64,000 bases of DNA from Bacteroidota bacterium (GTDB taxonomy: Bacteria > Bacteroidota > Ignavibacteria > UBA10030 > SZUA-254). The translations under genes were made by a program, and so were the position numbers. The notes under the pieces were generated by a model. It saw nothing but the letters and a program-made list of their open reading frames with translations, made no database searches and was not told the DNA's origin. Within the stretch, counting starts at the first letter, position 1. Each line of letters begins with the position of its first letter. The stretch is taken from positions 248,001-312,000 of the forward strand of contig DATDFQ010000056.1 of NCBI GenBank assembly GCA_036522515.1. Direction: 5' to 3'. Positions 23,496-60,367 of this stretch are shown here, piece after piece.

Positions 23496-24275
23496 TTGAA
23501 AGCGGGGATCATCGCGGCCGGAGACGGGAGCCGCCTCAAGTCTGAAGGAGTTTTGTCCCTGAAGCCGCTGGTGGAAGTGCAGGGCGTCCCCCTGATCGAG
23601 CGGCTGATCCGGTCGTACATCGGATCCGGCGTCGAGGAAATCGTTTGCATCGTCAACGAGTCATCCCTGGAGGTGAAGCGGTTCGTGGAGTCGAAGGGCT
23701 TCTCCGCCCCCGTGAAGTTTGTGGTTCAAACGACCCCGAGTTCGATGCACAGCCTGTTCGCCCTCGCGCCGCACCTCGAGGGCGGGAGGTTTCTCCTCTC
23801 GACGGTCGATTCCATCTTTAACGCGGGCGAATTCGGCAGGTTTTTGGAATACGCCCGGTCCCCCGGGGCGGCGGAAGGAGTCCTTGCGGTCACAAATTTT
23901 GTGGATGACGAAAACCCTCTCTATGTTGAGCTCGATCCGTCCTGGAACATTCTCTCCTTTGGACGGAAAAGCGAACAACCCGGCGGGCCTGCCGGCCCTG
24001 TCACGCCCCGGGGGCCTGCGGGCGTCTACGGAGGCGGCCGGGGAGCGGCTTCCCTTGATTTCCCCTGGGTCACCGGGGGGCTCTATGTCCTCTCGCCGCG
24101 GGTTTTTTCCGAGATGGATGCCGTGTTGAAACTGAACGTCGGCCGCCTGCGAAATTTCCTCGCTCATCTGGTGAACCAGGGATACCGGTTGGAGGGATAC
24201 CCGTTCTCGAGGATCGTCGACGTCGATCATGCGGACGATATCCGCGCGGCCGAAGAGCTGCTGAGAACCGCCTGA
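23496..24275 (+). CDS. NTP-transferase family nucleotidyltransferase
   Basis: 259 residues, TTG start (no ATG or GTG fits the conserved N-terminus). The pyrophosphorylase signature is at residues 2-35: GIIAAGDGSRLKSEGVLSLK then PLVEVQGVPLIERLI, and the Mg-binding Asp is in LLSTVDSIF. The family activates sugar or polyol phosphates as NDP-derivatives (GlmU/RfbA-like fold) and includes CTP:inositol-1-phosphate cytidylyltransferase. It is 2 bases upstream of an Mla permease and in the same run as four to five lipid head-group genes, so a CDP-polyol product is a reasonable inference. The substrate is not shown by the sequence. Confidence 0.82.
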   Translation: MKAGIIAAGDGSRLKSEGVLSLKPLVEVQGVPLIERLIRSYIGSGVEEIVCIVNESSLEVKRFVESKGFSAPVKFVVQTTPSSMHSLFALAPHLEGGRFLLSTVDSIFNAGEFGRFLEYARSPGAAEGVLAVTNFVDDENPLYVELDPSWNILSFGRKSEQPGGPAGPVTPRGPAGVYGGGRGAASLDFPWVTGGLYVLSPRVFSEMDAVLKLNVGRLRNFLAHLVNQGYRLEGYPFSRIVDVDHADDIRAAEELLRTA

Positions 24276-24277
24276 TC

Positions 24278-25063
24278 GTGGCCGGGCTCGCGGGTTACAT
24301 ATCGCCGGTGCAGGGTTTCAAGAGGTCGCTTCTCCGGCTCCAGGAATACTCGCTCTTTCTGTACGAAAACGTCCGCTCCCTCGGCTCCGTCTGGAGGTAC
24401 CGGCGCGACACGATGGAGCAGATGTACCTCATCGGAGCGCAATCGTTCATGATCGTTTTTCTCGCCGGCCTCTTCATGGGTATCATCATGTCGATCGAGG
24501 GGGGCCACCGGCTCGAGACGTTCGGCGCGAAGTTGCTGGTGGGACGAACCACGTCGCTCGCATTGATCCGCGAGCTCGGTCCGGTGATCACCGGGCTCAT
24601 GCTGGCGGCGAGGACCGGCGCAAAAAACGCCTCCGAGCTGGGGTCGATGCAGGTGAGCGAGCAGATCGACGCGCTGCGCGCCTTCGGAACGAATCCGGTC
24701 GAGAAACTCGCGATGCCCCGCCTGGTCGCGGCGCTGATCATGTTTCTTCCTCTCACGCTGGTCGCCGATCTGGTCGGGATCCTCGGGGGGATGTTCGTAT
24801 CGGATCTCTGGCTTCACGTCGACAAGTCCTTCTACTGGCATTCCGCGATTTACGACCTGAAGCTGAAGGATTTGATCGTCGGCTTCGCCAAGCCCGTCAT
24901 CTTCTCGTTCTTCATCTCGACGATCAGCTGTTACTACGGCCTCTCCACGACCGGGGGCACGCTGGGAGTCGGAAGAGCCGCCGTGAACGCGGTCGTGGTG
25001 GGCTCGATTGTCGTGCTCTTCAACGATTTTATTTTCACCAAGGTCATCTGGTCGATCTTATAA
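24278..25063 (+). CDS. MlaE-family lipid ABC transporter permease
   Basis: 261 residues, GTG start 2 bases after the preceding stop. The MlaE blocks are FLAGLFMGIIMSIEGGHRLE, SLALIRELGPVITGLMLAAR and the coupling region GAKNASELGSMQVSEQIDAL. Five to six membrane segments. With the ATPase at 25064 and the MCE protein at 25828 it forms an Mla-type system that moves phospholipids between the inner and outer membranes. No separate MlaB or MlaC gene is nearby. Confidence 0.93.
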   Translation: MAGLAGYISPVQGFKRSLLRLQEYSLFLYENVRSLGSVWRYRRDTMEQMYLIGAQSFMIVFLAGLFMGIIMSIEGGHRLETFGAKLLVGRTTSLALIRELGPVITGLMLAARTGAKNASELGSMQVSEQIDALRAFGTNPVEKLAMPRLVAALIMFLPLTLVADLVGILGGMFVSDLWLHVDKSFYWHSAIYDLKLKDLIVGFAKPVIFSFFISTISCYYGLSTTGGTLGVGRAAVNAVVVGSIVVLFNDFIFTKVIWSIL

Positions 25064-25828
25064 ATGATACGTCTCGAACATGTGAGCGTTGAGGTCGAGG
25101 GACGCAAGATCCTCGACGATGTCTCGTTCGTCGTGAAGGACGGCGAGACGAAAGTCATTCTGGGCCCGAGCGGAGCGGGAAAAAGCTCGCTTCTCAAGAT
25201 GATCCTCGGTCTCTGGAAGCCGGACAGCGGGTCGGTGTTCGTCGACGGCACGGAACTGACGCATTTGACCGAGAGGGAGAAGATGCCCGTCAGGCGGCGG
25301 ATGTCGATGGTGTTTCAGGGGAACGCGCTCTTCGATTCCCTGACCGTGGCGGAAAATGTGGCGTTTTTTCTCCAGGAGCATTCCGACATGCCTCCCGACC
25401 AGATCGGGGAGCGGGTGGAGGACTGCCTGGAGTTCGTCAATTTGCCCGAAACGCAGGATCTCCTTCCCGAGGAGCTCAGCGGCGGGATGAAGAAGCGGGT
25501 CGCCATCGCCCGGGCGATCGCCTTCAACCCCGAAGTCATTCTCTACGACGAGCCGACGACCGGCCTCGACCCGCTGAATGCGAAACTGATCACGGAGCTG
25601 ATTATCAGGCTGAAGAAAAAAAGGAACGTGACCTCCGTCGTCGTGACGCACATCCTCCGGGATGCCTTCGCGGTGGGAGACTCGCTCGCCCTGATGAACG
25701 ACGGGCGGGTCGTCTTCGACGGATCCGCCGAAGATCTTCTCGGGTCGGCCGATTCGTTCGTCCAGAGCTTTCTGTCAGAAATTCGGGAGGAAGCAAACCT
25801 GCTATCCCTGCACAAGGAGGGGTCATAA
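25064..25828 (+). CDS. MlaF-family lipid ABC transporter ATPase
   Basis: 254 residues, ATG directly after the permease stop. Walker A LGPSGAGKSSLLKMI (about 34-48), signature LSGGMKKRVAIARAI (typical MlaF variant GGMKKR), Walker B ILYDEPTTGLDPLNA, H-loop VTHILRDA. ATP hydrolysis drives lipid transfer by the MlaE-MlaD complex. Confidence 0.95.
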   Translation: MIRLEHVSVEVEGRKILDDVSFVVKDGETKVILGPSGAGKSSLLKMILGLWKPDSGSVFVDGTELTHLTEREKMPVRRRMSMVFQGNALFDSLTVAENVAFFLQEHSDMPPDQIGERVEDCLEFVNLPETQDLLPEELSGGMKKRVAIARAIAFNPEVILYDEPTTGLDPLNAKLITELIIRLKKKRNVTSVVVTHILRDAFAVGDSLALMNDGRVVFDGSAEDLLGSADSFVQSFLSEIREEANLLSLHKEGS

Positions 25829-26790
25829 TGGATTCCCAGCAACTCCGGTGGTCGAACCTGAAGGTCGGGATCGTCCTGATGATCGGCCTCATCATCTTCG
25901 TCTTCATCGTCAGCATCGTGGGCACGGAGCAGAACATTTTCACCTCCACCTACACGGTGAAACTCTTTGTGACGAACGTGCACGGGCTCGTGAACGGCGC
26001 GATGGTCACGCTGGGCGGCCTGAAGATCGGATATGTGACGGACCTCCAGTTTCAAACGAGGGACAGCGTGAACGGGGTGGAGGTGACAGCCACGCTCCTG
26101 TCGAAGTACCGGGCCTCCGTCACCTCCAGCACGATGGCGCAGATCAAGACCATCGGCCTTCTGGGCGACAAGTACATCGACCTCAGCATCGGGAACCGGA
26201 ACGAGCCGCCGGTCGCGGAAAATACGTTTATTCCGATCATCGAGTCGTTCGACATCGAAACCGCGGGCCCGCAGTTTAAGTCGGCCCTCGCCGATTTCAC
26301 CGAATTGATGGGAAGCGCCCGCAGGATCGCCGCGTCCGTTGAAAAAGGGGAGGGGTCTCTCGGAAAACTCGTGAAACGGAACGATGTCGCCCTGGGGATG
26401 GAGCGCTTTCTTGCCTCGCTCAACGGGGTGATGAGCGCCGTCGAGAAAAAGAGGGGCCTCCTCGGAGCGCTTGTGTACGACGATTCGCTCTCCCGCGGCG
26501 TCTCCGAGGTTTCCTCGAACCTGAGGTCGATCACCGGGCAGATCCGGAAGGGGCAGGGGACCATGGGAAAGCTGATCATGGAGGATGACCTCTACCGCCA
26601 CCTCTCGTCGTTCACCTCCCGGGCGGATACGCTGATGGCGAAAGCGGCCAGCGACTCGAGCAACGTCTCGAAGTTCATCGGCGACGGAAGATTCTATACC
26701 CAGATGAACTCTCTCATGAAGGATCTGAACCTGTTCCTGATCGACCTGAAGGAACACCCGGAACGTTACGTCCACTTTTCGGTCTTTTGA
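25828..26790 (+). CDS. MCE-domain (MlaD-like) lipid transport protein
   Basis: 320 residues. One N-terminal membrane anchor (NLKVGIVLMIGLIIFVFIVS), then an MCE domain (VHGLVNGAMVTLGGLKIGYV ... IKTIGLLGDKYIDLSIG, residues about 40-125) and a long helical C-terminal part (about 150-310) that may form the MlaD-type hexameric channel. Its ATG overlaps the MlaF stop by one base. Longer than E. coli MlaD (about 183 residues), like the mycobacterial and chloroplast forms. Confidence 0.92.
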   Translation: MDSQQLRWSNLKVGIVLMIGLIIFVFIVSIVGTEQNIFTSTYTVKLFVTNVHGLVNGAMVTLGGLKIGYVTDLQFQTRDSVNGVEVTATLLSKYRASVTSSTMAQIKTIGLLGDKYIDLSIGNRNEPPVAENTFIPIIESFDIETAGPQFKSALADFTELMGSARRIAASVEKGEGSLGKLVKRNDVALGMERFLASLNGVMSAVEKKRGLLGALVYDDSLSRGVSEVSSNLRSITGQIRKGQGTMGKLIMEDDLYRHLSSFTSRADTLMAKAASDSSNVSKFIGDGRFYTQMNSLMKDLNLFLIDLKEHPERYVHFSVF

Positions 26791-27800
26791 TGGGCTTGAA
26801 GCTGCCGCTGGCCAAAATCGGTTTCTTTCTCTTCGGTCTTGCAGGATTCGTCTACCTTGTCCTCCATTTCGGCGTCGATCAGATTGCCGCCAACATCAGG
26901 CAGGCGGGGTGGAGCCTCTGCTACGTCGTGCTGGTCTGGCTCGTCGTCTACCTCCTGAACGCCTCCGCATGGACGCTGACGCTCGGGGCGGGGGGGTGGA
27001 AGATCCCCTTCCTCCGGTTGTTTATCCTGACGGTCTCCGGATTTGCCATCAACTATGTCACCCCGTTTGTGGCCCTCGGCGGGGAGCCCTACAGGGTGAA
27101 AGCGCTTTCGCCGCTGCTCGGGACCCAGCAATCGATTTCTGCCGTCATTCTCTACCGGATGGTGCACCTTCTGGGCCACATGCTTGTCCTTCTGTCGGGC
27201 ATCGTCGTAGCCCTCGCCGTTCTTCCGCTGCCGGTCACGCTCGTCGCCTTGCTGGCATTCGCGGGTCTCCTGATCTGCTGTGTCATTGTCCTGACTGTTC
27301 TGGGGCACCGGTATGGCTTCTTCACCAGAGTGCAGTCGTGGCTCGCGAAGACGCCTCTTCTCCGGCGGCTCGCCGGGCTGTTGGGGAAGTACGAGTCCCA
27401 GTTGGTCGAAATGGACAGGCGGATCACCGCACCCTACCATCACGCGAGGCCGCGCCTCGTGCTCGCGGTCGCGCTCGAATCCCTCAGCCGGATCTGTATG
27501 GGAATCGAAGTCTATTTCATCGTCCGGGGCATCGGGATCGAGATCAGCCTCCCCGAGGCCCTCTTCCTCTATATCGTCTATTCGATCATCATCAATCTTC
27601 TCTTTTTTATTCCGTTGAACTTCGGGGCCCGGGAAGGGGGGCTCGCGCTCGGGATGGGAAGCCTCGCGCTGCCGCCTCTGCTGGGAGTCTACATGGGAGT
27701 CGTCATGCGCATTCGTGAATTCTTCTGGATCATGCTCGGTTTGCTGTTCATCCTTCTCTCGGGCCACCCCAAGAAGGCCTCGCCGGTGGCTCCCGTATGA
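26790..27800 (+). CDS. Flippase-like integral membrane protein (LPG synthase TM / UPF0104 family)
   Basis: 336 residues from the ATG in the TGATG overlap with the MCE gene. About eight membrane segments. The family motifs PFVALGGEPYRVKALSPLLG and, near the C-terminus, FGAREGGLALGMG are present. This is the membrane domain of lysyl-phosphatidylglycerol synthase/AglD-like proteins without the synthase domain, believed to translocate or glycosylate lipids. Here it links the Mla genes to the CDP-alcohol transferase genes. Confidence 0.85.
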   Translation: MGLKLPLAKIGFFLFGLAGFVYLVLHFGVDQIAANIRQAGWSLCYVVLVWLVVYLLNASAWTLTLGAGGWKIPFLRLFILTVSGFAINYVTPFVALGGEPYRVKALSPLLGTQQSISAVILYRMVHLLGHMLVLLSGIVVALAVLPLPVTLVALLAFAGLLICCVIVLTVLGHRYGFFTRVQSWLAKTPLLRRLAGLLGKYESQLVEMDRRITAPYHHARPRLVLAVALESLSRICMGIEVYFIVRGIGIEISLPEALFLYIVYSIIINLLFFIPLNFGAREGGLALGMGSLALPPLLGVYMGVVMRIREFFWIMLGLLFILLSGHPKKASPVAPV

Positions 27801-28264
27801 CGATTCTCCCGCATCTCCTCCTCACGACCGTGGGGGTCCAGGTTCTGGGGCTCGAAGGCAAAGACGTCGCGCTCGCGTACACCTTCGGGTACGGTATCGA
27901 TCTGGTCGATCATCCGATTAAATTGAAGCTCTATCTCAGGAAGAACGGGAAGAAGAACGAATCGAATTATCACTGGCGGACCCCCCTGCAGGAGCCGGTC
28001 GCGCTCCTCTGGATCGTCCCGCTCGGTTTGTATCTGGGGACGTGGGTGCCGGCGCTCTTTTTCGCATCTCATTTTTTTCTGGACTACCTGGTCGGGTATG
28101 AAAAACGGCCGTTCTATCCGTTCAGCACTTATTCGACGGAGGGACTGCTCGGCAGATATTCCGACGGAGCGAAGGAGATCTGGACCTGCGCGATCTGCGC
28201 TGCGGTGAGTATCGCGCTCGGGTACCAGCAGATTTTGCATTTTGCATCCAACTTGTTTTCCTGA
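27797..28264 (+). CDS. Small multi-spanning membrane protein, possible YdjM/DUF457-like hydrolase
   Basis: 155 residues, ATGA overlap with the preceding gene. Hydrophobic segments at about 1-18, 70-95 and 130-150; conserved-looking polar residues at GIDLVDHPIKLK, SHFFLDYLV and KRPFYPFS. The His/Asp pattern recalls membrane-bound metal-dependent hydrolases of the YdjM type, but the similarity is weak. Overlaps on both sides put it firmly in the lipid operon. Confidence 0.7.
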   Translation: MTILPHLLLTTVGVQVLGLEGKDVALAYTFGYGIDLVDHPIKLKLYLRKNGKKNESNYHWRTPLQEPVALLWIVPLGLYLGTWVPALFFASHFFLDYLVGYEKRPFYPFSTYSTEGLLGRYSDGAKEIWTCAICAAVSIALGYQQILHFASNLFS

Positions 28265-28272
28265 GCGGGCCG

Positions 28273-28914
28273 ATGGGCAGAGAATCAGACGGTTTCCTTA
28301 AAATCCCGATTGTCTTCGCGCACGAGAAACTCGGCCTGAGTCCGAACGGAATCTCGACGATCGGCTTCGTGGCCGGGATCGCCGCGGCGGGGCTCGTGGC
28401 GGCCGGACTCCTCTTGCCCGGGTTGATCGTGATGGCGGTTTCCCAGATTATTGACGGATTGGACGGGGGGGTGGCCCGCCTTTACAACCTCCAGTCGCCC
28501 ACAGGCCGGACGCTCGAAACCGTCTACGACCGGTTGAACGAGCTGGCGATCCTGCTCGCCCTCGCCTACACGGGGTATGTCACCTATACGATGGTGGGAC
28601 TTGCTTTCATCGCGATCCTCCTCGTCACAATGCTGGAGCCGCTCTCCGGATTCGATCCCGGATTCAAGCGCTTCGTCATTTATTTCGGCTATGCGGCGAC
28701 GCTGCTTTTTCATCTCCGCGGGTTTCAGATTGCGCTGGAAGTCATCTTCTTCGCAAACCTCGCGGGGTTTGCCGTGGGAACGATTCTGGTCGACTACCGC
28801 CTCCAGGAGGAAATCGACAGGCAGTCGATGCTCCGGCGCGTACGGGAGGTCGAAGCCGGCATCGCTCAACCCCCCGACGATCCGCCTTCGTTCCTGTCGA
28901 GGCTGTTCTCATGA
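28273..28914 (+). CDS. CDP-alcohol phosphatidyltransferase family protein, variant motif
   Basis: 213 residues, six membrane segments. The family motif DxxDGxxAR(x8)Gx3Dx3D is present at about residues 60-85 as DGLDGGVAR ... GRTLETVYD: the third acidic residue is Glu rather than Asp, while the final Asp is kept. Such enzymes join a CDP-activated alcohol or diacylglycerol to a second alcohol or alcohol phosphate, releasing CMP. The next gene, the ATP-grasp enzyme, overlaps it by 4 bases. The substrate pair is unknown. Confidence 0.88.
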   Translation: MGRESDGFLKIPIVFAHEKLGLSPNGISTIGFVAGIAAAGLVAAGLLLPGLIVMAVSQIIDGLDGGVARLYNLQSPTGRTLETVYDRLNELAILLALAYTGYVTYTMVGLAFIAILLVTMLEPLSGFDPGFKRFVIYFGYAATLLFHLRGFQIALEVIFFANLAGFAVGTILVDYRLQEEIDRQSMLRRVREVEAGIAQPPDDPPSFLSRLFS

Positions 28915-29738
28915 AACTTCGCCTCGCAGGCATTCGAAGGAAAACGGAGTTTTCGCCCAACCATGTGGTGAACGACCTCCTCATCATCAACCAGACGGCC
29001 GATGCCCTGAAGGAGATCGGCGCCGAGGTTGCGATGTACGATGAAGGGGTCATTACGCCGGAAACGCTGAAGGAAGACCTGATTTTTTCAATGGCGCAGG
29101 GCCCGATCGGGTCGCAGACCCTTCTCAAGATAGCAAAGCGGGGCGCCCTGATCATCAACTCGCCCGAAAGCGTCATGAATTGTTACCGCATCAGCATGAT
29201 CCGGATTCTGCCGGCTGCCGGGATCCCCTTCCCGAAAAGCGTCGTCGTATCGACGGACTCCGACCTGAATCCACGGCAGGCCGGGTTTACCACCTCCCGG
29301 GTGTGGGTCAAGCGGGGCGATGTGCATGCCGTCCATAAGGAGGACGTTTCCCTGGCAAACACCGACGAGGAGGAGCTGACCCTCCTGAAGGAGTTTCACC
29401 AGCGCGACATCAGGGAAGCGGTGTTGCAGGAACACCTCGACGGCGACACGGTCAAGTTCTACGGCGTCAACGAGAGCGACCTGTTTCACTGGTACTACCT
29501 GAACGGCGTCTACCACACGAAGTTCGACGCGGGGCGTTTGCGCGAACTGGCCTCCGCTTCCGCCGTCGCGCTCGGGCTCTCGGTCTACGGCGGCGACGCG
29601 ATCATCGGAAGAGACGGCGGCGTCACGGTGATCGATATCAACGACTGGCCGAGCTTTGCTCCCATCCGGGAGGAGGCGAGCCGGCACATCGCGCAATTGA
29701 TTTATCGAAAGGCGACCGAATTCAAGAAGTCGTCCTGA
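28911..29738 (+). CDS. ATP-grasp enzyme of the RimK/ITPK-like group
   Basis: 275 residues, ATGA overlap with the CDP-alcohol transferase. ATP-grasp features: RVWVKRGDVHAVHKEDV (ATP-binding Lys, about 129), LQEHLDGDTVKFYGVN (about 185-200) and the metal-binding segment VIDINDWPSFAPIREEA near the C-terminus. The spacing recalls both RimK-like ligases and inositol-phosphate kinases of the ITPK type. With an inositol-phosphate synthase in the same gene run, a cyclitol phosphate kinase or an amide-forming ligase acting on a lipid head group are both possible. The sequence does not decide. Confidence 0.75.
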   Translation: MKLRLAGIRRKTEFSPNHVVNDLLIINQTADALKEIGAEVAMYDEGVITPETLKEDLIFSMAQGPIGSQTLLKIAKRGALIINSPESVMNCYRISMIRILPAAGIPFPKSVVVSTDSDLNPRQAGFTTSRVWVKRGDVHAVHKEDVSLANTDEEELTLLKEFHQRDIREAVLQEHLDGDTVKFYGVNESDLFHWYYLNGVYHTKFDAGRLRELASASAVALGLSVYGGDAIIGRDGGVTVIDINDWPSFAPIREEASRHIAQLIYRKATEFKKSS

Positions 29739-29918: not shown

Positions 29919-31277
29919 ATGACAACCACTGAAACACTGCCAAAGAAGGCATCGGTGAAAACCGCGATCCCCGGGCCCAAATCGAAGGAGATTTTCGATT
30001 TCGAACAGAAATATATTTCCCCCGGCATTCAGACCATTGCGACCCTCTCCCAGCTCGCGATGGAGAAGGGGGAGGGTTGCGTGATCCAGGACGTGGACGG
30101 CAACCGGTACATCGATTTCTTTGCCGGTGTCGCGGTGGCGAGCCTGGGCTACAATCATCCCAAGTACGTAAAGGCTCTCCAGGAGCAGGTCGCCAAAATT
30201 CATGTTGGAAGTTTCGCGACGAAAGTCAGGGCTGACCTCTCCAAACTCCTTTCCGATCATGCGGTGGGCGACCTGCGCCGGACGCAATACTACAGCGGCG
30301 GTTCCGAAGCGGTGGAGGCGGCCCTGCGGCTTGCGAAGTCGTACACGAAAAAGAGCGAGGTGATCGGATTCTGGGGGGGGTTCCACGGAAAAACGCTCGG
30401 AGTCGTCGGCCTGATCGGGGACGATTTCAAGCAGCATCTCGGCCCGCTCCCCTTCGGGATCTATAATACGCCCTATGCCGATTGCCGCCGGTGCCCGTTG
30501 AACCACACGTTCCCGGAGTGCGAATGGGCCTGCGTGGATTTCATCAAGCTCAAAATGAAGGCGGAGACGACCAACAACGTCGCTGCGATCATCGTCGAGC
30601 CGATCCAGGGAACGAACGGGAATGTGGTGCCTCCCGCAGGGTTTCTGAACCAGCTCCGGCGGCTCTGCGACGAGATCGGCGCCCTTCTGATCGTCGACGA
30701 GATGATCACCGGTTTCGGCCGGACAGGCCGGTTGTTCGCCTGCCAGCATGACGAGGTCGTCCCCGACATCATCACGATCGGCAAGAGCTTCGGCGGAGGG
30801 TATCCGATGACCGGGCTCATGTCCCGCGAGGAGGTGATCTTCTCGAAGCCGTTCGCGAATCCGAGCGGCAGTTCGTCGAGCTACGGAGGAAATCCCCTCG
30901 CCTCGGCCGCGGCCTATGTCACCGTCAAGACGATTCTGGACGAGGGGCTCGTGGAGAATTCCGAAAAGGTGGGCCGCTTCATGCTCGAGCGGCTGATGAC
31001 GTTCAAGGAAAAATTTCCCTTCGTGGGGGACGTCAGGGGCCGCGGGCTTCTCATCGGCGTCGAGCTGGTGAAGAACAGGAAGACGAAGGAGAAACTCGAC
31101 AAGGAAACGTGCCGGACCATCTTTAAAGAGTGCCTGAAACGCGGGCTCATCGTCATGGGGTACAATCCCGATATCCGGATCAACCCCCCGCTTGTCATCG
31201 ATGAAGCCACCGCGGAAGAGGGAATCGATATCATGGAAGAGGTCTTTACGCATGTCGCGGATCGAAGCAACTTATAA
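29919..31277 (+). CDS. Class III (omega/acetylornithine-type) PLP aminotransferase
   Basis: 452 residues. Fold-type I class III features: YYSGGSEAVEAALRLAKSYT for cofactor phosphate, IIVEPIQG, LLIVDEMITGFGRTG (Asp to pyridine N) and the Schiff-base Lys in TIGKSFGGGYPMTG (about 288). Residues about 188-205 hold a four-Cys insertion, CRRCPLNHTFPECEWAC, seen in some archaeal and Bacteroidota members and possibly metal-binding. The family moves amino groups between omega-amines, ornithine derivatives or keto-sugars/cyclitols and a keto acid. Beside a Gfo/Idh/MocA dehydrogenase and inositol-phosphate synthase, an inosose aminotransferase is an attractive but unproven reading. Confidence 0.9.
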   Translation: MTTTETLPKKASVKTAIPGPKSKEIFDFEQKYISPGIQTIATLSQLAMEKGEGCVIQDVDGNRYIDFFAGVAVASLGYNHPKYVKALQEQVAKIHVGSFATKVRADLSKLLSDHAVGDLRRTQYYSGGSEAVEAALRLAKSYTKKSEVIGFWGGFHGKTLGVVGLIGDDFKQHLGPLPFGIYNTPYADCRRCPLNHTFPECEWACVDFIKLKMKAETTNNVAAIIVEPIQGTNGNVVPPAGFLNQLRRLCDEIGALLIVDEMITGFGRTGRLFACQHDEVVPDIITIGKSFGGGYPMTGLMSREEVIFSKPFANPSGSSSSYGGNPLASAAAYVTVKTILDEGLVENSEKVGRFMLERLMTFKEKFPFVGDVRGRGLLIGVELVKNRKTKEKLDKETCRTIFKECLKRGLIVMGYNPDIRINPPLVIDEATAEEGIDIMEEVFTHVADRSNL

Positions 31278-32169
31278 AGCGCGCGACGTCGAAGAGACGA
31301 TCGACATCTATTTTTACCGGCCCATAGGGTATCTGCTCGCCCTGGGGTGCCGGGCGTTGCGGATCAGCCCGAACGTCGTCACGATCGTCAGCATTTTCAT
31401 CGGCGTTGCCGGGGGTCATCTCCTCTACTACCGCGACGCTGTCCTGAATGTCTGGGGGATGATCCTCTGGGTCCTCGCGGACACACTCGACAGCGTGGAC
31501 GGGCAGCTTGCCCGCATGACAGACCACAAATCGCGGTTCGGCAGGATTCTGGATGGCCTCGGGGGAAATATCATATTTATGAGCATCTATGGACATCTGT
31601 TCGCACGGCTCGTCGTCACGACCGATGTCTGGTGGCCGCTCCTCGTTCTTTTCGTGATTGTCAGCGCGATGAGCCATTCGGTGCAAAGCGCCCTCGCGGA
31701 TTATTACCGGAATGCCTACATCAAATTCGTGATCGATCCCGCCAAATCGGAGCTTGACGATTCGGTTGAGGTCCGGAAGGAATTGGAGAGCCTCTCCTTC
31801 CGGAAGAACCCTGTCAGGAAATTCATGATGCGCGTCTACCTGAACTATACGGTGGAGCAGGAGGCGTTCTCGAAGAATTTCCAGAAACTCCGCCGCCGTG
31901 TGGATCAGGAGTACGGCAGGGAGATCCCGGGATGGTTCGCCGACCGCTACCGCGCGCTCAATAAGCCGTTGATGAAGTACTATGCGATCCTGACCACGAA
32001 CATCCGCATGATCATCATGGCCGTCTGCGTTGTTCTCGACCGCGTTCCGCTCTTTTTCGCCATCGAGATCGTCGGCATCAACCTCGTCATGATCGCGGTG
32101 ACGATGTACCAGGAACGGCTCAGCGCCCGCCTCCTCGGGGAAATCGATCAACACGGCCACTCCTCCTGA
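31252..32169 (+). CDS. CDP-alcohol phosphatidyltransferase homologue lacking the last catalytic Asp
   Basis: 305 residues from the ATG at 31252, overlapping the aminotransferase end by 26 bases; a longer frame to 31192 lies wholly in that gene. The motif at about residues 80-105 reads DSVDGQLAR ... GRILDGLGG: the first three acidic residues are intact, but the fourth position, normally the general-base Asp, is Gly. An amphipathic stretch without membrane helices (about 150-245) separates the two membrane parts. Its N-terminus (YFYRPIGYLLALG ... SPNVVTIVS) resembles the proteins at 59492 and 60373, so the three are paralogues. Confidence 0.85.
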   Translation: MSRIEATYKARDVEETIDIYFYRPIGYLLALGCRALRISPNVVTIVSIFIGVAGGHLLYYRDAVLNVWGMILWVLADTLDSVDGQLARMTDHKSRFGRILDGLGGNIIFMSIYGHLFARLVVTTDVWWPLLVLFVIVSAMSHSVQSALADYYRNAYIKFVIDPAKSELDDSVEVRKELESLSFRKNPVRKFMMRVYLNYTVEQEAFSKNFQKLRRRVDQEYGREIPGWFADRYRALNKPLMKYYAILTTNIRMIIMAVCVVLDRVPLFFAIEIVGINLVMIAVTMYQERLSARLLGEIDQHGHSS

Positions 32170-33185
32170 TGCTCGAAGGGGCGATTATCGGTTTTGGAAA
32201 TATCGTCGTGCGGGGCCACATCCCGGCGTATCTCTCGGACGAAGGCCTCCGCAGCCGGGTGCGGATCAGGGCGGTGCTGGACGTATCGGAGCAATCGCGT
32301 CCGGCCGCGAGGGAGCTCCTTCCCGATGCGGCGTTCTATACGGACGCCGGGTCGTTGCTGGAAAACGAGAAACTCGATTTTGTGGACATCTGCACGCCTC
32401 CGTCGACGCATGCGGGTTTCCTGAAAGAGTTTGCCGCAAGAGGGATCCACATCCTCTGCGAAAAACCGCTCGCCGAGAGTTATGCGGCAGCCCTGGAAGC
32501 GTCGCGGCACATCCGCGAACAGAAGGTGGTGTTCGTGCCCTGCCACCAGTATAAGTATTCGCCTCTCTGGAGATCGATTCATCAGATCATCTCGTCGGGA
32601 GGGATCGGCAGCGTGGTGCTTGCCCAGTGCAATGTGTTCCGCATGCAGGCCGATACCGGCACCGCCGGCTGGAATCCGCGCTGGCGGACGGACAAAGCGC
32701 ACGGAGGAGGGGGAATCCTCGTGGATACCGGCGCCCACTACTTCTATCTTGCCCAGTACCTGTTCGGAGTTCCGGACTCGGTTTCGGCGGTGCTCAGGAC
32801 CCTCAAACACAGGGAATACGGCGTGGAAGACACCGCCCTCGTCACGCTGGAGTACGGCGGGATGATCATGCAATTGAATCTCACCTGGGCCGCCGCCCTG
32901 CGCGCGAACAGCGTGACGGTCGTCGGAACCACCGGGAGTTTGACCTACGACGGTTCAAGGCTGGTGCACGTCGACCAGGCCGGATCCCGCGAGATCCCAA
33001 TGCCGGACGTGTCGGACAAGAACCAGTATGTCGGCTGGTACGCCTCGCTGCTGAAGGAGTTCCTCGACAGGGTGGAACAGGGAAACCGTTCGGAGGACCT
33101 CCTGGATGAGGCCGTGACCGTCATGCAGCTCTTGGATCTGAGCGCGGGCGCCTCCCTGAAGGGGTGCGCGGTGAAGATCGCATGA
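32169..33185 (+). CDS. Gfo/Idh/MocA-family NAD(P)-dependent oxidoreductase
   Basis: 338 residues. Rossmann start GAIIGFGNIVVRGHIPAY, the family signature ILCEKPLAES (catalytic-region Lys, about residue 98) and GGILVDTGAHYFYLAQYLFG (His about 180). Members oxidise or reduce sugars and cyclitols, including inositol 2-dehydrogenases. One-base overlap with the transferase before it and 4-base overlap with the HAD gene after it. A polyol or cyclitol dehydrogenase role in the head-group pathway is inferred from the neighbours. Confidence 0.9.
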   Translation: MLEGAIIGFGNIVVRGHIPAYLSDEGLRSRVRIRAVLDVSEQSRPAARELLPDAAFYTDAGSLLENEKLDFVDICTPPSTHAGFLKEFAARGIHILCEKPLAESYAAALEASRHIREQKVVFVPCHQYKYSPLWRSIHQIISSGGIGSVVLAQCNVFRMQADTGTAGWNPRWRTDKAHGGGGILVDTGAHYFYLAQYLFGVPDSVSAVLRTLKHREYGVEDTALVTLEYGGMIMQLNLTWAAALRANSVTVVGTTGSLTYDGSRLVHVDQAGSREIPMPDVSDKNQYVGWYASLLKEFLDRVEQGNRSEDLLDEAVTVMQLLDLSAGASLKGCAVKIA

Positions 33186-33865
33186 GGGCCGTCCTCTTTG
33201 ATTTCGGCGGGACGCTCGACACCGGCGGAGTTCATTGGAGTGAGGTGTACCGGGAATTATACAGGCGCTTTGGAGCCGGAGTCACGGACGGGGATGTGGA
33301 CCGCGCGTTTCTCTGGTCGGAGCAGCAGCTCCTGCTCGACGCCGGGATCCCGGCTGCCACGTTCCGGCAGACGCTCGGGAAGCAACTCTCCCTCCAATTC
33401 GCTTTTCTGCATCTTGAAGGCAAGGACGGCCTTCGCGAGACGATGCTCGATCAATGTTACCGCGATGTGCTTGCCGTCGCCGCGAAGTCGGCCGGCGTGC
33501 TCGCGGCGGCGCGTCCCGGGTTCAAGCTCGGGGTCGTTTCCAATTTTTACGGGAATCTCCCGATCGTCTGTAACGAGCTTGGCCTCGGGGCCTTTCTCGA
33601 CGTCATGGTCGATTCGGCACTGGTGGGTCTCAGGAAGCCCGACCCGGAGATATTCCGGTTTGCCGCCGCCCGGCTTTCCGTGGCGCCCGAAGAGACATAC
33701 GTGGTGGGCGATTCGTACGAGCGGGATATCGCTCCGGCGAAACTCATCGGGTGCCGGACAATCTGGTTGAGGGGCCCAAGCTGGACGACCCCTTCCTCCA
33801 CCGCGTCCGCCGACTGGACGATCAGGAATCTCGAAGAGGTCACAACGATTCTATCATCTCACTGA
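33182..33865 (+). CDS. HAD-superfamily phosphatase
   Basis: 227 residues, ATGA overlap with the oxidoreductase. HAD motifs: I LFDFGGTLD (nucleophile Asp; the second acid is Gly, as in many YjjG-type members), II VVSNFYGN, III RKPDPEIF (Lys), IV VVGDSYERDI. An alpha-helical C1 cap lies between motifs I and II. In pathways that pass through a phosphoinositol phosphate an obligatory phosphatase removes the extra phosphate; this gene, 20 bases before the inositol-phosphate synthase, is the candidate. Confidence 0.88.
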   Translation: MRAVLFDFGGTLDTGGVHWSEVYRELYRRFGAGVTDGDVDRAFLWSEQQLLLDAGIPAATFRQTLGKQLSLQFAFLHLEGKDGLRETMLDQCYRDVLAVAAKSAGVLAAARPGFKLGVVSNFYGNLPIVCNELGLGAFLDVMVDSALVGLRKPDPEIFRFAAARLSVAPEETYVVGDSYERDIAPAKLIGCRTIWLRGPSWTTPSSTASADWTIRNLEEVTTILSSH

Positions 33866-33885: not shown

Positions 33886-35238
33886 ATGAAATCTGTAAAA
33901 TCCGCCAAATCCGTCTCCTCCCGGAGCGCCGCACAACCGATTCGCAAGCCGAAAGGGAAACTCGGCGTCCTGATCGTCGGATTGAACGGGGCCGTTTCGA
34001 CGACGTTTCTCGCCGGTGTGATGGCGGCGAGGAAAGGGATCGCAAAGCCGATCGGTTCCCTGACACAGATGGGCACGATCCGGCTCGGGAAACGGACCGA
34101 ACACCGGTCGCCCCTGATCCGGAAATTTATCGAGCTCGCGAAGCTCGAGGACCTCGTGTTCGGAGGGTGGGATATTCGGGACGAGAATTGCTATCAATCG
34201 GCGGTGCACGCCGGAGTCCTCCAGCGCGAGCACCTCGATCTGGTGAAAAAGGAGCTCGAATCGGTGCGCCCGATGCGGGGCGTGTTCGACCAGTACTACG
34301 TCAAGCGGCTGAAGGGCTCCCACGTCAAGAAGGCGAAGACAAAATTCGAGCTGATGGAACAACTGCGCGCGGATATCCGGGCGTTCAAGCAACAGAGCGG
34401 GTCAGACCGGTGCCTGATCGTCTGGTGCGGCAGCACGGAAATCTTCATCACTCCCAAGGGCGTGCACAACACGCTCAAGAAGTTCGAGGAGGGGATGCGG
34501 AAGAACGATGTCGACATCTCCCCCAGCATGCTCTACGCCTACGCCGGATTGATGGAAGGCGTCCCGTTCGCAAACGGCGCCCCGAATCTGACGCTGGATA
34601 CCCCCGCACTGATGAAGCTGGCGAACGACCGGGGAGTTCCGGTTTCGGGAAAAGATTTCAAAACCGGACAAACCCTCCTGAAGACCGTGATTGCCCCGAT
34701 GCTGAAGGCTCGCCTCATCGGCCTGAACGGATGGTTTTCCAGCAACATACTCGGAAACAGGGACGGGGAGGTGCTCGACGACCCGGAGTCGTTCAAGACG
34801 AAGGAGGAGAGCAAACTTTCGGTGCTGGACGGAATACTCCAACCCGAGCTGTATCCCGATCTCTACAAGGATTTCTACCACAAGGTGCGAATCAACTATT
34901 ATCCCCCCCGCGGAGACAACAAGGAGAGCTGGGACAACATCGACATTTTCGGCTGGATGAACTATCCGATGCAGGTGAAGGTCAATTTTCTCTGCCGCGA
35001 CTCGATCCTCGCAGCTCCGATTGTGCTTGACCTCGTTCTCTTCATGGACCTCGCCCACCGGGCGGGGATGAAGGGGATCCAGGAATGGCTTTCCTTCTAT
35101 TTCAAGAGCCCGATGTTTGCGCCCGGGCTCTACCCGGAGCACGATCTGTTCATCCAGCTCATGAAACTGAAGAACACACTCAGATTCATGAGAGGCGAGG
35201 AGCTCATCACGCATCTGGGGCGTGAGTACTACGATTGA
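33886..35238 (+). CDS. ino1: myo-Inositol-1-phosphate synthase
   Basis: 450 residues. Isomerises glucose 6-phosphate to inositol 3-phosphate using NAD. The NAD-binding start GVLIVGLNGAVSTTFLAG is preceded by a short basic tail. The diagnostic blocks are GLNGWFSSNILGNRDGEVLD (about residues 279-298), FKTKEESKLSVLDGIL (catalytic Lys region), VRINYYPPRGDNKESWDN and FLCRDSILAAPIVLDLVLF. AAAGGAAA lies 9 bases before the ATG. It is the strongest functional anchor of the 23496-37019 region: the cell makes inositol phosphate, and surrounding genes look like head-group activation, transfer and lipid transport. Confidence 0.95.
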   Translation: MKSVKSAKSVSSRSAAQPIRKPKGKLGVLIVGLNGAVSTTFLAGVMAARKGIAKPIGSLTQMGTIRLGKRTEHRSPLIRKFIELAKLEDLVFGGWDIRDENCYQSAVHAGVLQREHLDLVKKELESVRPMRGVFDQYYVKRLKGSHVKKAKTKFELMEQLRADIRAFKQQSGSDRCLIVWCGSTEIFITPKGVHNTLKKFEEGMRKNDVDISPSMLYAYAGLMEGVPFANGAPNLTLDTPALMKLANDRGVPVSGKDFKTGQTLLKTVIAPMLKARLIGLNGWFSSNILGNRDGEVLDDPESFKTKEESKLSVLDGILQPELYPDLYKDFYHKVRINYYPPRGDNKESWDNIDIFGWMNYPMQVKVNFLCRDSILAAPIVLDLVLFMDLAHRAGMKGIQEWLSFYFKSPMFAPGLYPEHDLFIQLMKLKNTLRFMRGEELITHLGREYYD

Positions 35239-59491: not shown

Positions 59492-60367
59492 ATGGCGATG
59501 AGCGAGAGCGAATACAAACGGTCTTTAAAATTTCCCCCCTCGGAGGAGATTCTCGATCTTCTCTTCTACAGGCCTGTCGCCTTTGTGGTGGTCAAGGCGG
59601 TGGCGCGATTACCGGTCACGCCCAACCAGGTTACGCTCGCTTCGCTTGCGGCCGGGCTGGCGGCCGCAGCCGAATTTGCTTCGGGATCCCGCTCCGGCCT
59701 CATCGAGGGCGCCCTCCTCTACGCTTTAGCCAACGTGCTTGATTGTGCCGACGGGCAGCTTGCCAGACTCCAGAAAAGCGGCACGCTCCTCGGAAGGGTT
59801 GTGGACGGGGCGGCCGATTATCTTTCAGGTGTCGCCATCTTCCTCGGCCTGGGCATCGGGCTCGCATCGTCGGGTGCAGCGGCCTGGTGGTTGATCGCCA
59901 TTGCGGGGGTGAGCAGCGCTCTCCAGGCAATGTTCTTCGACCGCCACCAGAGCGAGTTTATTTCCTTTGCAGCCGGGGAGCCGGATTTTGCCGCCCGGGA
60001 GATCACCCGGTTTCAAACGGAGCTTCGACGCATCCGGCTCGATGGGAAAGAGTTCTTCAGGCCCGTGTTATTGCAGCTCTACATCAGATATCTGGCGGTG
60101 CAACAGCGTTTTCGCGGGAAAGAAGGGGTGCAGAGACGATCCTCCGGCGGGGAGGGCCTTAACCGGACGCTTATGATCCGCCTCTGGAGCGTTCTCGGTC
60201 CGACGACCAACCGTACGTTACTCATCGTTTGCGCTCTGGCGGGACGAATCGACATCTATCTCTGGTCGATCGCCGTCGGCGGGAATGCATGGCTGCTCGC
60301 GATCTCCGCGCTGCAGGCACTTGGAGCGTCCGCCAACCCGCCAGCATCCGCACGGGGAACCCCGTAG
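59492..60367 (+). CDS. CDP-alcohol phosphatidyltransferase family protein
   Basis: 291 residues from the ATG at 59492. The catalytic motif is canonical: DCADGQLAR, eight residues, GRVVDGAAD (about 83-108). Like its paralogues it starts with a PSEEILDLLFYRPVAF / TPNQVTLAS module and carries a polar insertion (about 175-240) between membrane parts. Long for a phosphatidylglycerol- or phosphatidylserine-type synthase, which argues for a different alcohol. 5 bases before the next transferase. Confidence 0.87.
   Translation: MAMSESEYKRSLKFPPSEEILDLLFYRPVAFVVVKAVARLPVTPNQVTLASLAAGLAAAAEFASGSRSGLIEGALLYALANVLDCADGQLARLQKSGTLLGRVVDGAADYLSGVAIFLGLGIGLASSGAAAWWLIAIAGVSSALQAMFFDRHQSEFISFAAGEPDFAAREITRFQTELRRIRLDGKEFFRPVLLQLYIRYLAVQQRFRGKEGVQRRSSGGEGLNRTLMIRLWSVLGPTTNRTLLIVCALAGRIDIYLWSIAVGGNAWLLAISALQALGASANPPASARGTP

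Follow-up and report, generated by a model that had tools for sequence, protein, structure and literature searches.

How a CDP-alcohol phosphotransferase homologue could work without the fourth aspartate of its signature is the question raised by one gene in the window, the 64,000-nucleotide stretch of Bacteroidota DNA analysed here. The open reading frame begins with ATG at 31252, stops at 32167-32169 and encodes 305 aa. Its motif DSVDGQLARMTDHKSRFGRILDGLGGN reads D80-x2-D83-G84-x2-A87-R88-x8-G97-x3-D101-x3-G105, a signature of the form DX2DGX2AR-X8-GX3D-X3-Gly in which the fourth Asp (D4) has become Gly. D4 is termed absolutely conserved in PMC4634129. A sequence-only reading of the window had pointed out the glycine and its GGA codon, which we confirmed at 31564-31566. 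It was also right that the gene is intact and lies in a tight operon, overlapping the upstream aminotransferase gene (ending at 31277) and abutting the downstream GFO/IDH gene (starting at 32169), and that the paralogues at 59492 and 60373 retain Asp. A misaligned motif was ruled out by the exact spacing and by a profile alignment of the region to AF2299. The gene and the two codons of most concern are as follows.

31252..32169, + strand: D4-less CDP-alcohol phosphotransferase homologue (ORF, Pfam, fold)
31564..31566, + strand: codon 105, GGA, Gly replacing the signature Asp D4 (Gly in 61/63 relatives)
31675..31677, + strand: codon 142, CAT, His on TM4, invariant (63/63 relatives) and proposed to stand in as general base

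The protein matches Pfam PF01066 at 41.8 bits (cut-off 22) and carries D1, D2, D3 and the Gly, Ala, Arg and Gly of the signature. Since Gly105 stands where a class I CDP-alcohol phosphotransferase (CDP-AP) has D4, we class it as a homologue whose signature is altered and not as a canonical CDP-AP. More specific models score below their cut-offs: 38 bits against 170 for PIP synthase NF045883 (NCBIfam PIPSynth), 36.2 against 580 for IPCT/DIPPS NF041135, and 45 against 180 for archaetidylinositol phosphate synthase NF040950. The AlphaFold2 model (pLDDT 88) has the CDP-AP fold, with Z-scores of 18.2 to AF2299 (rmsd 2.9 over 202 residues), 16.5 to AfDIPPS, 14-15 to PIPS, 12.4 to CHPT1 and 11.1 to CEPT1. 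The Archaeoglobus CDP-APs AF2299 and AfDIPPS are the closest solved folds and use small CDP-linked donors, as is predicted here. Unlike the focal protein, they keep D4 in the alignments and make soluble products, and their identity to it is 13-18%. AfDIPPS uses CDP-inositol, as its PDB title also indicates.

For PIP synthases the base is presumed to be D4, and changing it to Asn nearly abolishes activity of the mycobacterial enzyme (PMC4634129). The sequence-only reading gave D4 this role, deprotonation of the alcohol; that stands as the presumed function, with the addition that D4 also contacts Mg-2 (PMC4634129, PMC6506517, PMC10182977). In MtPgsA1, for example, D4 moves with Mg-2 (PMC6506517). 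A D4-to-Ala change leaves xlCHPT1 with under 20% activity (PMC10182977) and CEPT1 with about 15% (PMC10156783), and both reports propose histidines as the base; CEPT1 uses DAG and has His155 and His197 near the acceptor (PMC10156783). In lipid-acceptor enzymes, then, D4 is important but may not be the base. CEPT1 and CHPT1 resemble the focal protein in their soluble CDP-alcohol donor and lipid acceptor, both of which are predicted here. They differ from it in keeping D4, in having extra C-terminal helices and in a His next to D3, proposed as base, where the focal protein has Gly102. BT_1523 and the mycobacterial PIP synthases share the CDP-AP fold and a (here predicted) inositol lipid product, but they use CDP-DAG and inositol phosphate and keep D4.

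The glycine is not peculiar to this genome. Among distinct close relatives (blastp E<=1e-40, fetched loci), D4 is Gly in 61/63, so the alignment of orthologues that the sequence-only reading had proposed as a check bears out fixation of Gly. The other two relatives have Asp, a state that reading overlooked. D1, D2, D3 and the motif Gly, Ala, Arg and Gly are invariant in all 63, as are His142, Gln145, Tyr199, Gln203 and Arg252. The residue after D4 (D4+1) is Asp in 42 relatives and Asn in 21, and nothing else. Asn is found in 18 Gly rows besides the focal protein, in both Asp-bearing relatives and in the focal protein itself, which at the sequence level has no acid there. A scan of species genomes returned 15 loci, all Gly (six from Ignavibacteria at 65-81%, nine from Bacteroidales at 34-41%). 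In a whole-genome sample of relatives, 47/60 had some match, mostly weak matches to other CDP-OH genes. A phylum sample held a relative in 41/395 genomes at E<=1e-20, and a sample of a single family, by inference Bacteroidaceae-type, in 304/399 at E<=1e-25, with Gly in all of the best 30 of the 304. D4 was read from the best-scoring loci of each search (<=30 each) and only these were fetched, so the readings represent a minority of the matches and are biased to close relatives. Four loci of the organism's own genome were left out of the first comparison, L001-L003 being ordinary CDP-OH genes and L005 a duplicate.

Compared with its nearest orthologue, the focal gene has dN 0.12 and dS 1.45 (dN/dS about 0.08), dS being saturated against two other orthologues; selection on the gene is purifying. 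The loss of D4 is real and fixed, and the enzyme that shows it is probably active. In the first tree set, 31 of 72 rows have Gly and 41 have Asp, both Asp-bearing close relatives among them. The Gly rows cluster, and the two Asp rows fall inside the Gly group in the best trees. Forcing the Gly rows into one clade costs 3.5 log units, and the AU test does not reject this arrangement (p 0.40). Both trees leave out the seven 28273-type rows (see below) and the D4 and D4+1 columns, and the tree with the AU test also leaves out 13 far rows and L070. Every Gly row has the TM4 His, as do both Asp-bearing relatives and another seven outgroup rows with Asp at D4; the remaining 32 of the 72 mostly have Ser, Ile or Asn. 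Since D4-Asp rows also have the His, it seems to have come first, with D4 lost on that background. This order fits compensation, with at most one or two events. The Gly sequences may all share one event, so His plus Gly counts as a single observation.

The neighbourhood of the gene contains the following.

23496..24275, + strand: NTP transferase, probable CTP:inositol-phosphate cytidylyltransferase (NCBIfam, Pfam, PDB matches)
24278..25063, + strand: permease gene, linked in some orthologous clusters, which we take to encode an MlaE-like permease
25064..25828, + strand: ATPase gene, presumably MlaF-like
25828..26790, + strand: gene assumed to encode an MlaD/MCE-like protein
26787..27800, + strand: LPG_synthase_TM / flippase-like membrane protein (Pfam PF03706, 3.6e-25)
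27797..28264, + strand: small membrane protein (YdjM match, weak and below cut-off)
28273..28914, + strand: second CDP-OH homologue, 213 aa, Glu at D3, Asp at D4
28911..29738, + strand: ATP-grasp protein, conserved cluster core, ITPK-like or RimK-like
29919..31277, + strand: class III aminotransferase (Pfam PF00202, 3.2e-100)
32169..33185, + strand: GFO/IDH oxidoreductase (top NCBIfam match, under its cut-off: inositol 2-dehydrogenase)
33164..33865, + strand: HAD-IA phosphatase (soluble HAD-IA phosphatase models)
33886..35238, + strand: myo-inositol-1-phosphate synthase, MIPS (Pfam PF07994, 3.9e-103)

For the NTP transferase at 23496, the best NCBIfam model is IPCT/DIPPS (9.8e-13, under cut-off); it also matches Pfam NTP_transf_3, and IPCT 2xme is among its PDB matches. 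The gene at 28273-28914 is a third paralogue that the sequence-only reading overlooked. It has Glu at D3 (GRTLETVYD) and Asp at D4 in 7/7 copies (the window and L038-L043), so that the operon holds two CDP-OH proteins with one altered signature acid in each. In the best-hit neighbour table its pairing with the focal gene is confined to the window and L038-L043; the other Gly loci do not have it alongside. The aminotransferase and the inositol-dehydrogenase-like gene always go together in the 30 wide Gly loci: 13 have both and 17 have neither. They could build an amino-inositol head group; nothing to the point on amino-inositol lipids was found in the literature searched.

An "alternative inositol lipid cluster" has been described in Bacteroides vulgatus and Prevotella, comprising a cytidylyltransferase, a CDP-OH enzyme, a HAD phosphatase and MIPS, with gene functions that its authors call unconfirmed (PMC9246714). 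The window holds an NTP transferase, a CDP-OH enzyme and a HAD gene near MIPS (23496, 31252, 33164 and 33886), and by this gene content the focal gene belongs to that cluster. The cluster itself has been described before; what is new is the clade-wide change in the signature. The transferase BV Ptrans BVU_RS13105 has the same kinds of neighbours as here, with MIPS in the vicinity, and the B. vulgatus tags (NTP 13095, transferase 13105, HAD 13115; PMC9246714) agree with the gene order found here: NTP, ATP-grasp, transferase, flippase, HAD. Judged by gene order, BVU_RS13105 is very probably the orthologue of the focal gene. It was identified by a search for DX2DGX2AR...GX3DX3D (PMC9246714), whereas 29/29 new orthologues here read GX3DX3GD. 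The ATP-grasp gene found here goes unnamed in the cluster description of that paper. In the literature searched, neither a fixed loss of D4 nor a mechanism without D4 is described, and we found no knockout or assay of the cluster's transferase step; PMC11334938 does not mention inositol.

Species assigned this cluster, B. vulgatus and P. veroralis, make PI-DHC (PMC9246714), and P. copri makes DHC-PI (PMC10865984). The proposal in PMC9246714 is that CDP-inositol and diacylglycerol give PI-DAG, which is then turned into PI-DHC via the HAD protein. In B. vulgatus, Cer-PI / inositol phosphoceramide is present and diacyl PI is not detectable (PMC10056535). Given this, and since the HAD matches soluble phosphatase models, direct transfer to ceramide appears more likely than a PI-DAG intermediate, although species lacking the BT genes gave TLC bands compatible with PI-DAG (PMC9246714), which speaks against this.

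The linkage to the cluster differs between Gly-type and Asp-type loci. In the 30 Gly loci with wide flanks (the window counted), the NTP transferase is present in 26, the ATP-grasp gene in 26, HAD in 27, the flippase in 19 and MIPS in 19. None of these accompanies L048, L049 (near copies) or L094, and L092 has HAD and MIPS adjacent, while its genome carries NTP and ATP-grasp at other sites. The new Bacteroidaceae-type loci carry NTP, ATP-grasp, flippase and HAD in 29/29 cases (1.5 kb each side). All five genes, MIPS included, are absent from the flanks of both Asp-type loci. The Asp genomes G087 and G187 do carry MIPS beside an IPCT-like gene elsewhere, which rules out the idea that the Asp state means no CDP-inositol. 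Nor does ceramide capacity separate Gly from Asp genomes: SPT-like proteins occur in both types, and of the five seen only that of G287 exceeds the cut-off. The organism's own genome encodes one (L144, C64:23997-25145) whose best NCBIfam model is serine palmitoyltransferase (482.9 bits, cut-off 640), so the organism may be able to make sphingolipids. The Gly genomes G390, G833 and G834 are without ATP-grasp, and G833 and G834 are without MIPS; we count these against the cluster-based explanation. L094, in G390, is a divergent Gly relative whose neighbours are an SDR, an acyltransferase and a cytidylyltransferase of the glycerol-3-phosphate type, which suggests a different CDP-alcohol donor, again in a soluble-donor setting.

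We consider it fairly probable that the focal protein has an active, D4-independent role using CDP-inositol. The fuller explanation, an active enzyme responsible for a membrane lipid's inositol head group, is one we lean towards. In this explanation, MIPS would make inositol phosphate and the NTP transferase would then form the CDP-inositol donor. The retained D1, D2 and D3 would bind the CDP part and one Mg2+, and phosphoinositol would be transferred to a lipid alcohol, presumably dihydroceramide or diacylglycerol. Tree and alignment support a disappearance of D4 in one event, or close to one, from an ancestor in which the TM4 His was already present, and the proton would be taken by His142 on TM4 instead of D4. 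The explanation draws on Gly in 61/63 with the other signature residues invariant, the low dN/dS, the cluster linkage and the predicted CDP-AP fold. Because species with the cluster are reported to make inositol phosphoceramide, the focal enzyme is probably active. By analogy, the near loss of activity in the Asp-to-Asn mycobacterial PIP synthase weighs against an active D4-less enzyme.

Among candidate bases we rank His142 first, the D4+1 residue second and substrate assistance third, and we offer His142 as the general base replacing D4 tentatively, as a possibility on the weaker side of even. It lies on helix 128-161 of the predicted model, at +37 from D4, against +39 for CEPT1 His197, xlCHPT1 Gln175 and MtPIPS S132. 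The spacing is no proof of equivalence, since members of the Gly group show values between 34 and 48. Profile alignment pairs His142 with a Ser of AF2299, and the CEPT1/MtPIPS register is unsure by about a turn.

The D4+1 residue, Asp in Bacteroidaceae-type and Asn in Ignavibacteria-type proteins, could instead turn inward and replace D4 as metal ligand or base. Its restriction to Asp or Asn in 63/63 relatives speaks for such a role. Asn would be a poor base, however, in the focal protein and the 18 other Gly rows that have it, and its presence in the two Asp-bearing relatives implies that the D4+1 residue predates the loss of D4. On a helix it would also point about 100 degrees away. We regard this as unlikely.

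Less likely still is substrate assistance, in which the ATP-grasp protein would phosphorylate the inositol ring, the phosphate would occupy the place of D4 and take the proton, and the HAD would then remove it. The Gly enzyme nearly always has ATP-grasp and HAD as neighbours, neither Asp enzyme has them, neither Asp genome has ATP-grasp anywhere, and in P. veroralis the HAD is fused to the CDP-OH enzyme (PMC9246714). The ATP-grasp protein, whose hallmark is DINDWPSF, matches profiles of ITPK inositol phosphate kinases at 2.6e-5 to 2.4e-3. It might equally be a RimK-like ligase, as the top profile match is the ligase PsnB (1.3e-6) and the fold list is led by LysX, carbamoyl phosphate synthetase and RimK; the weak likenesses leave both readings equal. 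G390, G833 and G834 have Gly without ATP-grasp, and there are only two Asp genomes. The specific version in which this pair, as ATP-grasp inositol phosphate kinase and HAD, replaces one catalytic residue, with a phosphate on the CDP-inositol donor as base, strikes us as very improbable. The related suggestion of the sequence-only reading, a phosphate acceptor bringing its own base, is unsupported in that form, since what the cluster predicts is a lipid acceptor, with CDP-inositol as donor.

That reading also raised a pseudoenzyme, which would scaffold or regulate an active partner such as the 28273 CDP-OH protein. In its favour, changing the lost residue to Asn nearly kills MtPIPS (PMC4634129), and a second CDP-OH gene is present in the same operon. 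The remaining catalytic residues are nevertheless invariant in 63/63 under purifying selection, the Gly-type loci outside the focal family have no orthologue of the 28273 gene next to them (the window and L038-L043 do), and cluster species make the expected lipid. The published cluster description names no other CDP-OH candidate (PMC9246714). A pseudoenzyme is thus disfavoured and scarcely probable. Sequencing error or local mutation is refuted, with a probability close to nil: 61/63 distinct relatives from many assemblies share the Gly, no point in support was found, and the Asp orthologues named beforehand as a refutation amount to just 2/63, both without the cluster.

Because the loss is common to nearly all close relatives, this branch probably departs from the textbook D4-base mechanism. 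In a large family of lipid-synthesis enzymes the base is taken to be D4, yet the CHPT1/CEPT1 work had already put histidines forward in that role. If the D4-less enzymes are active, D4 is not essential everywhere for proton removal, and a natural D4-less clade that is common in one gut-associated family makes the question testable. Motif searches that require D4 will miss or misdescribe enzymes like this one. The finding is relevant as well to the route by which inositol sphingolipids are made in gut bacteria.
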